From Apricaphanius iberus (taxonomy: Eukaryota; Chordata; Actinopteri; Cyprinodontiformes; Aphaniidae), in assembly GCA_028564705.1 (NCBI GenBank), contig JAPXFQ010002899.1, positions 2,232,001 through 2,296,000 on the forward strand: a stretch of 64,000 nucleotides of DNA, given 5' to 3'. Below, piece after piece: positions 38,001 to 44,000 of this stretch. The notes under the pieces were generated by a model. That model did no database searches. It was not told where the DNA came from and saw nothing but the letters and a program-made list of their open reading frames with translations. Position 1 is the first letter of the stretch. Every line of letters begins with the position of its first letter. The position numbers were made by a program, and so were the translations under genes.

Positions 38001-41000
38001 TGACATACAGTCAGCAAACAGAGATTAACCCTTTCAATTCTTAATATATTTTGTTGTGGGGCAAAAAAACACGGTTTCAATCCTGCTTTTGGAAGAAAAA
38101 AAATGTTTTTCTGTTTTTTTTCTTTTCTTTTTGAGTTTCTTGTCAGAGTTCCACATAACTGATCTCAGAGAGCCGAGTCTGCTTTAATTAGAAACGCATT
38201 TACAACAGAGGACACCTGTTTGTAGGGAATGGGCAGTGTGGAAACTCTCAGGGAATGGTTTCTGTATGGGGCACCATGCAAAAAAAAACACAAAAAAAAA
38301 AACAAGACGGAAACTGCGAATAATGAGATGTTTAAAATGGAGAGTTTTGTTTCCTGGCGTGAGTCTGTGGCAGCTTTGCATTTGGAGTAAAAAACATTGT
38401 GTAGCATGTCCTGTTGCCAGTAGCAACAGGTTTTCTACTTTAAGTCAGCCGACTCTTCCTGCTGAGATTGAAAATTTGACATGCAATAATGAGTCAATCT
38501 GGGCCTAATTTGACCAAATGTTTTTTTGATAAGCGGTAGTAACGGTCTGCACATCATGTACAGACGGATTTGTTGCTTTTTGGCCTGGCTAGGCTGTCCG
38601 TTGTGGTCGGTGACTGCAGGATGAGTGTTGCTGTGGACATGGAGAACCTGAGAAGGAATAAATAAGATGAGTGAAAAGCTGATGGGAAGAGTTACAGAAG
38701 GCACATGGAGGGAAAGACATGGGCTGCTCTTCTGCGATGTGATTTGAGAGAAAATGGTTGTAAACACAGAAATTCACAGGTGTGCAAGGTTGGACGTGCA
38801 GCTTTGCATCATTTTGTGCATTTTTTTATCTTTCTGTGACAAATGTGGTAACAAATTTGTACATTTGCATACAATTTTTCATTTTTGTGCAACCTTTCTT
38901 TTGCATTTTTCATGATTTATTAACTATAACAAACTTTGTCAAATATCCGTAATTTCAGCAGAGGTTTCAGTAGGTTTCGGGATCAATCAGCAGCCGATCC
39001 GCTTTCTCTCACATTTATATTCTTCTCCTGTGTAATGACCTGATTTACATGCTTATAATCTTCAAATCAAAGACCTTCAATCTCCATCTTATGTCCTAAT
39101 CTGTCTGCACTTCCACCGACCACGAAATACTAGGCTTTGATGCTTCTTCACAGATAGGAATTGTGGGAACCAGAACCTGCTTTGCTTTTTGGATTTGACC
39201 CAAAGTACAAGAGAGCAAAACTCGACTTTTTGTGCAAGTCCAGGGCAGGAAAAGGGTGTCTCCTTCGTTGCAGCTGCTGCCAGCGATGAGTTCGCCAATG
39301 TCATCTGACTCTGCTGGTTAGGCCAATACTGAGGGGAGAGAAAGAATACAGGGGGGGAGAGAAGGAGAAAGAAGTCAGGGAAGTGTTTGTGGGAAGAAAA
39401 AGAGGTCAGTGTCGATGCAAGTCAAAGCTTTCTGTATTTGGGTAAGCTGTCACTGTCGGTGTCTTTGTGACTCAAACTCATTCCTGTAAATACAGTGGAT
39501 AGGTGGGAAAGGGAGAACAAGAGGGCATTTAGACAGCGCTGAGTGGGGAGTGTAGAAGATCCAGGGCGGAGCACGAAGGAGCACAAAAGAAGCTTGTCAG
39601 AAAGCCGTGCAGTTGTTTTTCAGTGACAAATCGTACCAAGAGCATGTTGCTGCTCCACTCAAACCATTTGCATTTTAAAGGCGTCGTTCAGATCAAAGTG
39701 CCTTAGTAAATTCCCAACAATCAGCAGCGATCCTACAATAACAATGCCAATGCTTTATCGGGTTACGAAGAGCATTTTTGAGGAACTCATTTTAAGAATT
39801 CTAATCATTAATCAGAAGCTCTCATGCACTTTGTGTGGGACATTGAGTTTTCAGATTGATAAAATACATGCATGTAAGGAATACAGGGAGAGTTTTGATG
39901 GTTATACATTTTGACACATCAGTTCTTTTGTCTTTGCAAAATCTTCTGGTTCGGTGAGGACTTTCCGTGGCCTTAGGGTGATCGTTGTTAGAAGTGTAAA
40001 TGTGATCATCGATCCCCTGCAGTGACATATAGTGGGACCTGCTAAGATTATAGCTCATTGCTTATTATGAATTACGTTTACAATAACCCATTTGAGCTCT
40101 AAAGTTAATTTAAAAAGCAGAGCAGACATTGTCCCACATGAGTTAAAAGCTACTGACCTGTTTGCTTGATAATTCCATCATGAGGGAACAAGATCAAAAC
40201 CTCAAAAGTAAATTTAATCCAGTTTTTGGTTGGAACAGAGCCCGCGTTGATGGTGTCGCTTTATCCAAGTTTCCCTTGTCCTGATGCTGTGTTTTTGAGA
40301 CCCTCACCCCAGGATGTGGCTCCGTGTCATCTAGATCGTCTTTGTCTTGCGTTTTGGGAAGAAGGCTTTCCGAACAGATGTGGTGGTGGATCCTCTGCTG
40401 AAGGAGGCGCTCCCCAGTGAGATCTTGGTCTTCCCACTGGTAATGGTGGAGCCGCCCAGAGATGTCGTGCTCCTGCCCCGGGAGATGGAGGAGTTCCCCA
40501 TGGCCAGCTTGGTCTTTCCCCTCTTTATGGTGGTGTTGCCCAGCGTCAAGGCTGTCTTCCCCTCTGTGAAACTGGTGTTGCCCATTGAGGCGAAGCTTGT
40601 CTTCCTTACCCTGATTCGACGGTGGGGTTCGGGTCTCACTCGACGCCGAGCATCTCACACTCATGCAGCACACTCTGCTCCGTGAGCGCTCACAGTTAAT
40701 AGTAACATCAGCTGTGATCCAGCAGAGAAGACCAGAATGCTAAGCATGGACGGCGCGACCCCCGTGTGGCATAATGCCTCCGTTGAGCAGGTCTACGTGG
40801 GCTTTGGAAGGCCACATACCACCCATGTGTCCTGTGAATGGACAGAGGCAGCCGTAGGTGGATGCAGCCTATCTGGGGGGACTCGGACAGTGGGGCAATT
40901 GTCCCTTCTACACGACGACACCGGCCGGTTGAAGGAGACATTGTTGAAAACAGGACAGTGCGCGGTGACATCACTTTCTTCTGAGCCATTGTTCCCTACA

Positions 41001-44000
41001 GCTTCTGATTGTAAGAGGTCCCCTCTGTGCACAGCTGTATGCACCATATGTAAAATCAGCTGCACATTGTCGCTTTTTTTTACAGAATGAAGCCTGAATG
41101 TGTTCATGTATCCCAAATGTCTGGATCTGAGGCTTTGATTACATGTTTCAAGCTACTGTAACTTTGTTCCTTTTTAAATCAATGACTATATACACACACA
41201 AAAACAATCAGGGACAATCAGGAACACAGTTTAGAGGTATTATCTTTATGTGCACTATCACATTGACACACTTTTACAGTTTCCTTGGGAATACAGCGTG
41301 CGGCTTCATCATGGGAAGGCATGAAAGACTCACTGGAATGCACAGAACTCCTACCGATCATGGCTGCACAGAACGGGGGGAATTGTTCTCATATCACCAT
41401 ATATAACACATCTGTTCAAACTTCCCCTCCCTGTTGAGCTTAACACCATAAAGCCTCATCGCATCACTCTCCCATTTGCATAACATCCTCTGCACGCTTA
41501 GTATTTCTCTCTTTTTTCACTTAAAACTTAACTTAAACTTAAATATGGAGCTTCCCTTTTTTCCTCTTCTTACAGCAGCGAAATAAAGATGAATTAACAT
41601 TTATCCCAAACTCACTGTGACTACTGACCTTCTAAAACTGACCACACAGACACATCCATGAGCTTTTATTGGTGTGCAGGATTCAAGTGTGAAAATCCCA
41701 GTAGATGTTGCTGTGCCTTTCTTTGCCCCTGATGAGGGTGGTCTTGACAACAGACACAGACTTGGTCCCATAGGTAAATGTCAGAGTCATGAGAGAGCTT
41801 GTGGTCTCCCCCCGTGTCACCGAAGTTTTAGCCACTGTTATGCTGTTGCCGCCCAAAGTTACTATGGTTCTGCTCCAGGAAAACGAGGATTTTCCCCAGG
41901 AGATGAACAACCTTGTCCTCAGGAACGAAACCCTGCCTTTGGTGAAGGAGGTCTTGCTGGATGAGAATGTAGTTTTCCACTCGTTGTTAGAGTCTTTTTT
42001 GGACTGCTTGGCTTCCCTCGGCTTGGGGCCGCTCTCCATCTAGGTGTTCCTCCGCTTGGACGTCAGCGCCTTGCGGAAGGAGGTGGTGGTGGTGCCCCGG
42101 CTGAAGCTGGCCCGTCCCAGAGCCACAGTCGTCTTCTGCCTTTGGATGGTGGAATCTCCCATGGAGGTGGTGGTCACTCCCCTAAAGATGGAGGACTTGC
42201 CTAGGGACACAGTAGTCTTTCCCCTGGCTATGGAGGTATTCCCCAATGCCAGGGCAGTCTTGCCCTCCGTGATGCTCGTGTTGCCCATTGAAGCGGAGGC
42301 AGTCAGCCCGAGCCCGTGCCTGGATGCCAGCTATCGCGTACGCTGCATAGCAGTCCTTCTGTGTTGCAGAAGGGCAAGCATGTCAGGTCAAAAAGCCAAA
42401 CCGAAGCTGCTGCAACTGCCCTAAATAGATCACACCACAATGTATAGATGAGGGGGAGGGAATTATTTGATCATGCTTTGATGCTGGCCGGTCCCTCAGA
42501 GAGACAAGATCCAAAAGGACCTGGAAGCACAGCAGAATCGAACAGACAGGGGGTTAATTGTTTCGTTTTCATGATTACAAAGCCGAAGCATTGAAGGGGG
42601 TGCTTTGTGCAAGCACACAGGACAATCGGGGTGACCTCAGTATGATAAGATGGCATGGTTCCCAAAACAAAAAAAGAAAAGAAGAAAAAAGCTCTCCTCC
42701 CTGCCGTTGTTTAGATACAGTACAACATTTGTCTGCTTCAGTACAGTACAGCAAGGGGCGTGCTGCACGGAACCCGGAAAATGTAAATGTCTTCCCTCGA
42801 AGTTGCCGTGCAGTTTCTAACTCCTTTTTGTTTGTCTTTCAGATATTCTGTAAAGACTCTTCTGGAAAAGTACACAGCAGAGCCCATAGATGATTCATCA
42901 GAGGAGTTCATTAACTTTGCTGCTATTTTGGAGCACATCCTCAGCCACCGCTTCAAAGGTAACACAGCAGGTAACATGCGGAAGAAAAACACCAAAAAAC
43001 CCAACCTATTCATAGTCGAGTAAGGCGAGTGTTGCTGTAACCACATCCTGCAGTCTGAGCAGGAATGATCTACTGCTGTGTTTCAATCTGTGGACAGGTT
43101 CAGGGAGTTGGTTCAGCTCCGACGGACAGCGCAGCTTCTGGGAGTACATCCGGCTGGCGTGCAGCAAGGTGCAGAACAACTGCATCGCCAGCATCGAAAA
43201 CATAGAGAACATCAGCACATCCCGTGCCAAAGTGAGGACATTCATGTGCACATCTCCGTGTGTTTGTTAGGGGGGGGAAGGGGGGGTTAAGGCCGGAGAG
43301 AGGGCCTTCTGTTCCCGCTGACTTCTTCTGTCCTCCTACAGGGTCGGGCTTGGATTAGAGTGGCTCTGATGGAGAAGCGTCTGTCTGAATATGTGTCCAC
43401 TGCTCTGAGGGACTCCAGGACAACCAGGTCCATCTCAAATTTCTATTGCACTAAAAAAACAAAAAGCAAAACAAAAACAGTGCAGTCCATTAACAAAGCT
43501 CAGGTGCATTCAATCTGCGCTGATTTAAGCAAAGCTCAGCACTACATCCCCTGTCAATCGATAAGTGAGAATGGAAGGAAAGGAAAGAGCCACATTCTGC
43601 TCCAAGTCTGAGAAAGACAGCAGCCTATGAGCATCACAATTACATCATTGACAATAAGGGGAACACCAGCTGCATAAAAACGCTTGTGAGGCTGCATTAC
43701 GTAATAATATGAATTAGGTGATGTTGCTTTATGGACGGTTTAGAGTGTTGAGAAACTCTTCTAACTGTAAGCCTCTAAATCCATGTTAATAAATCATATT
43801 ACCTCACTGAGTAAAACAATATAATCTGGATTCTTTTGTGAAGTATTAAAACCAGAATATAACACGTGACAGAAAATAGCTGTGTAAGAAACATGATTTT
43901 AAAAAGGACGTAAAGATATTTAACAATTAAAAAAGAACAATTTAAATTCTTCAAAATGTAAAGTCACATTAATACAGTATTTTATTTTACATGCGTATTT

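Follow-up and report, generated by a model that had tools for sequence, protein, structure and literature searches.

Two small open reading frames (ORFs), A and B, on the minus strand of a 64,000-nucleotide stretch of the Apricaphanius iberus genome (assembly GCA_028564705.1, contig JAPXFQ010002899.1, positions 2,232,001 to 2,296,000; hereafter the window) are paralogous genes, and they lie antisense in intron 1 of a rundc3 gene. We propose that this is very probably the zwilling locus of teleost fish, and with high probability the family is not an unrecognized one but is already known under that name. Taken as a whole, the explanation offered here, which joins the zwilling locus to a proposed mechanism, is likely to be right, though it is held a little less firmly than the identification itself. 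A look-alike frame beside the zwilling pair, ORF C, may be new.

The predicted products of A and B align without gaps over 71 residues, 48 of which are identical (68%). The underlying bases agree at 147 of 213 places (codon positions 1, 2 and 3 matching in 50, 61 and 36 of 71 codons, respectively), and Nei-Gojobori counting between the copies gave a nonsynonymous distance (dN) of 0.240 and a synonymous distance (dS) of 1.190. When as many base differences were scattered at random (5000 trials), a mean of 31.8 and a maximum of 42 residues stayed identical, as against the 48 observed. A, B and C are each internally repetitive, as none of 2000 shuffles of any of them reached the observed self-similarity at a lag of seven residues, and similarity at lag 14 was higher still. 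In the alignment the stop of A falls two codons beyond that of B. With an upstream GTG at 40639 the open frame of A amounts to 102 amino acids in the ORF listing, and 1454 bases separate the stop of B from the start of A on the same strand. Much of a preliminary description of this DNA is borne out by these results: it had reported two minus-strand frames of 84 and 82 codons, a gapless 71-residue alignment at about 68% identity, seven silent and two changed codons among the first 15 (correct when counted by eye) and repeats too regular for chance. It had also proposed dN/dS as a check, and the ratio between copies is well below 1 (about 0.2 in the minus frame). Its statement that both start and stop are conserved held for the start, at which the homologues begin MGNTS, and was nearly right for the stop, whose positions lie close together, A being two codons longer.

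Protein searches returned ten homologues. A search with B (E ≤ 1; 8 candidates, 45 to 143 amino acids long) matched one protein, P0001 from Albula goreensis (E = 5.3e-5). A second query, P0002, in which B and C were read through with Q put at the stop of B as a search device, matched nine more (P0003–P0011; 320 candidates, E ≤ 1). Five of these are B-type, namely P0003, P0004 (Menidia menidia), P0005, P0006 and P0011 (Salminus brasiliensis, deposited under the name “zwilling”), and four are A-type, namely P0007 (Dallia pectoralis), P0008, P0009 (Cirrhinus molitorella) and P0010. The window's B is 80–95% identical to P0003–P0006 (94% to the Menidia protein), and these four have the same end point as B. 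All four A-type homologues terminate there too, with KTL, and the window's A is two residues longer. M1, G2, N3, T4 and S5 do not vary among the 12 aligned sequences (the ten homologues, A and B).

A tree of these 12 rows split five A-type rows from six B-type rows with branch support of 100/99. P0001 belonged to neither group; it lay on the B side, but its branch was long and just 36 of its residues were usable. An organism is named for five of the ten homologues, and all five are teleosts (Albula, Menidia, Dallia, Cirrhinus and Salminus). Both types are represented on either side of the split between Otophysi (A-type in Cirrhinus, B-type in Salminus) and Euteleosteomorpha (A-type in Dallia, B-type in Menidia), so the duplication that gave rise to A and B came before that split. 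Orthologues of both types, sought as the preliminary description had advised, thus exist in other teleosts and fall into separate clades, which argues that A and B are genes and that their duplication is old. We observed in addition that the P0001 and P0011 models depart from the repeat after an Arg where their relatives have Gly, perhaps through a false intron call, and that the remaining C-terminal parts of both models may be artefacts.

The preliminary description knew of no named family with this pattern. That claim did not survive, given the name on P0011 and the teleost myelin proteins Zwilling-A/-B in the literature. By its title, a 2009 paper of Schaefer and Brosamle reportedly described Zwilling-A and -B as two related teleost myelin proteins from a single bicistronic transcript. 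Like the zebrafish pair (gene zwi), A and B are related proteins of a teleost, encoded in tandem on the same strand, with a B-type homologue named zwilling; the homologues of named source belong to Elopomorpha (Albula), Otophysi (Cirrhinus, Salminus) and Euteleosteomorpha (Menidia, Dallia). Unlike the Zwilling pair, the window holds a third related ORF; the bicistronic pair could correspond to B and A or to B and C. In a 2021 study, ZWIa and ZWIb were identified and quantified by mass spectrometry in purified zebrafish central nervous system (brain) myelin and were called teleost-specific (PMC8060510). The same study states that zwi mRNA differs between 189 oligodendrocyte precursor cells and 19 mature oligodendrocytes (p < 0.0001; the passage gives no direction for zwi) and that most myelin-related transcripts rise (PMC8060510). 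The portions available of two papers (PMC8060510 and PMC8921602) give neither a structure nor a mechanism for the zwilling proteins, and in that of PMC13208018 zwi does not occur.

The repeats were also compared with known folds. One alternative is that A and B form a left-handed beta-roll like the YadA head of trimeric adhesins, acquired or converged upon by fish. The heptads, of the form G-x-x-S/T-hydrophobic-x-x, resemble YadA head repeats in being 7/14-residue units led by glycine, and a phmmer search of the Protein Data Bank (PDB) with B returned six sequences at a limit of E = 10. Judged by their names, all six are of bacterial surface or adhesin type; the best were 2yo0 (presumably SadA; E = 2.7e-5) and CbpF 9u93 (E = 1.6e-4). 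Against this, Pfam YadA_head (PF05658) scored only 13.3 bits for B and 12.5 bits for P0004, below the 25-bit gathering cut-off, and did not match the window's A or C or, among the six of ten homologues scanned, P0006–P0010. A had two PDB matches up to E = 1, neither of them an adhesin, C had none up to that value, and the basic, Ser/Thr-rich composition may inflate match scores. DUF5649 (PF18886) repeats were matched with similar weakness by A (13.2 bits), P0006 (16.3 bits) and P0008 (10.3 bits), all under the 25-bit cut-off. AlphaFold gave a mean pLDDT of 41.6 for B (alignment of 12 sequences; eight short strands) and 44.4 for A (alignment of 10; one short helix and no strand). These models are unusable, and we make no claim of fold. 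The solenoid or fibre-like fold of the preliminary description is therefore not supported, even though B, alone of the three, does match trimeric-adhesin PDB chains. We regard a beta-roll as unlikely, and treat the adhesin similarity as apparent convergence of a simple pattern.

Several observations weigh against reading the locus as zwilling with three related frames. The zebrafish ZWIa and ZWIb sequences (B9UZF4, B9UZF5) were not among the matches of the protein searches with B, B plus C, or C, which leaves one deposited name and the fit of the locus to the 2009 title as the basis of the identification. P0011 itself is zwilling-like only over its first ~50 residues. The search for copies of A and B covers the 64-kb window, and further genomic copies are possible. 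ORF C had no database homologue (4 candidates, E ≤ 10), and when A, B and C were searched against the window by tblastn (E = 0.01) C matched itself only, and neither A nor B. Lastly, the plus frame shares its wobble position with the minus frame and also has dN < dS. The first of these points, together with the name being carried by only one of ten homologues, would favor a new, unnamed protein family on which the label of one automatic annotation is a coincidence. The named protein has a 13-residue start in common with B and sits on the B side of the tree, and the 2009 title, with two related teleost proteins from one transcript, fits a tandem pair on one strand. We consider a coincidence of this kind quite improbable.

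It is most improbable that the plus strand is the coding one and the minus pattern its shadow. Both copies keep the wobble-sharing plus frame open, with dN (0.323) below dS (0.683). Its products, however, share fewer residues (37/70, 53%) than those of the minus frame (48/71), in which dN/dS is lower, and the minus-strand assignment is therefore sound. The homologues agree, as all ten deposited or predicted proteins are translations of the minus frame and keep the Met, and the heptads continue into C in the same minus frame. The preliminary description was right that the plus frame is open and that the minus strand is favored; its figure of about 56% identity for the plus frame was slightly too high. 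That a transposable element or simple tandem array underlies the 14-residue internal repetition is scarcely credible, given that the locus holds no tandem array at a score of at least 50 and no Rfam match at gathering score (39800–42900), that tblastn places A and B only at each other's sites in the window, that homologues of distant teleosts fall into two clades, and that synteny is seen in Menidia.

The host gene was located with 12 RUNDC3A query motifs, allowing up to two mismatches. Eight of the 12 matched on the plus strand (at 35086, 42874, 43133, 43363, 44822, 44843, 44882 and 45027); the motif at 35086 marks exon 1 and that at 42874 lies within exon 2. These positions bear out the earlier placement of the ORFs inside rundc3a intron 1, where the “a” (as against rundc3b) is taken by us as an assumption. 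The RUN domain on exon 2 alone reached only E = 0.15. The Menidia model P0004 includes an antisense reading of rundc3a exon 2, identical to the window in 38/48 columns, and the position of the locus is therefore conserved in Menidia. Features of the locus are collected in Table 1.

Table 1. Features of the locus, in window positions.
Feature	Positions	Strand	Remarks
ORF A, probable zwilling A-type paralogue, 84 aa	40331..40585	minus	ATG to UAG; A-type homologues
ORF B, probable zwilling B-type protein, 82 aa	42040..42288	minus	ATG to UAG; B-type homologues
ORF C, third heptad-repeat ORF, 118 aa	41683..42039	minus	same frame as B; AUG directly after UAG of B
AATAAA, candidate poly(A) signal	41665..41670	minus	motif only; 12 bases past stop of C
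ATTAAA, candidate variant poly(A) signal	40213..40218	minus	motif only; 112 bases past stop of A
Conserved stretch upstream of A	40813..40996	minus	translated comparison: P0007 31/59 columns, P0008 43/59 columns
rundc3 exon 1 motif	35086-35115	plus	intron 1 starts after motif
rundc3a exon 2	42843..42958	plus	host gene, strand opposite the ORFs; boundaries placed by eye at AG/GT

All three models compared (P0003, P0007 and P0008) show homology ahead of the Met. The conserved stretch upstream of A is cut off from A in the window by stop codons or by frame, and is probably a 5′ untranslated region or a regulatory element (promoter, enhancer). Upstream of B, the minus-strand segment 42588–42665 resembles the upstream part of P0003 (15/26 identical), where regulatory conservation is possible. 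The upstream parts of P0003–P0006 mostly differ, with a few residues before the Met common to P0004, P0005 and the window. The N-terminal extensions of the gene models P0003–P0010 were rejected as coding, as in the window they lie in another frame or behind stops. SOX-type motifs were also considered, and two sites upstream of A (540 bases) and three upstream of B (430 bases), compared with 2.2 per kb in the window, were not convincing.

ORF C had been missed by the preliminary description. Against a heptad profile derived solely from A and B, C scored 26.3 compared with a maximum of 20.9 among its shuffles (0/5000 reaching it), and for two control ORFs from the region the score was lower than the mean of their own shuffles. 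The base composition of C is coding-like. GC content at third codon positions minus that at the first two (GC3 minus GC12) was 0.267 for C, 0.310 for A and 0.305 for B; equally long, overlapping stretches from the rest of the window reached these values in 0/17508, 2/17566 and 2/17570 cases, respectively. The value for the repeat part of C alone was reached by 11/17556 stretches, and the signal of C is also present in the mirrored plus frame. The frame stayed open in 61 of 20000 base shuffles. BLASTP aligned C with A at 26/77 identical residues (E = 3e-9 for one comparison) and with B at 18/56 (E = 2e-5, likewise for one comparison). On these features, we would put the chances that C is translated at about even.

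The UAG-AUG junction between B and C and the AATAAA after C are no more than suggestive of a bicistronic transcript. Readthrough of B's UAG into C was rejected, the stop being conserved at the end residue of P0003–P0006. It is conceivable, though somewhat doubtful, that C is a third, hitherto undescribed zwilling-type protein, made from the mRNA of B by termination-reinitiation at UAG-AUG. The locus would then yield a naturally polycistronic vertebrate mRNA whose two ORFs share a frame and abut without a spacer. In that case B-C, not B-A, might be the bicistronic unit, and A might be a second gene, driven by a promoter of its own within the conserved stretch upstream of it. We observed that A and B both have an AUG at once after their UAG (at 40328–40333 and 42037–42042, minus strand); the frame opened by the AUG after A closes after eight codons.

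The three predicted proteins, each encoded in a single open frame, are strongly basic (net charge of about +14.5, +11.5 and +12.7 for A, B and C, with isoelectric points of 12.0, 12.0 and 10.7), contain 33 to 37% Ser plus Thr and have no cysteine. Myelin basic protein (MBP) binds the cytosolic leaflets of myelin. Regular heptads are not known to be a feature of MBP, and none of A, B or C had a Pfam match to it (E ≤ 5). The comparison is of working only, in that, like MBP and MOBP, the Zwilling proteins are small, strongly basic and, according to PMC8060510, myelin-associated. From the strong basic charge and the reported myelin location we infer electrostatic leaflet binding. The A and B proteins would be made in oligodendrocytes and, being small, basic and free of cysteine, would remain in the cytosol, bind the acidic inner (cytosolic) leaflets of the myelin membrane electrostatically and help to hold or space the compacted layers, as MBP does. 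C would perhaps be translated too, by reinitiation from B's mRNA. By analogy with MBP, membrane binding of this kind is plausible, if a little short of an even prospect. For A. iberus, we infer transcription, translation, myelin location and membrane binding alike.

The main value of these results is clarification, as the locus is very probably known. They place both zwilling paralogues antisense in rundc3a intron 1, indicate that A and B were duplicated before Otophysi and Euteleosteomorpha separated, supply a dN/dS between the copies and point out a third ORF. The remaining novelty lies in ORF C and in which two ORFs make up the bicistronic unit. If B and C are indeed made in tandem from one mRNA, the locus would be a compact natural case for reinitiation in vertebrates.

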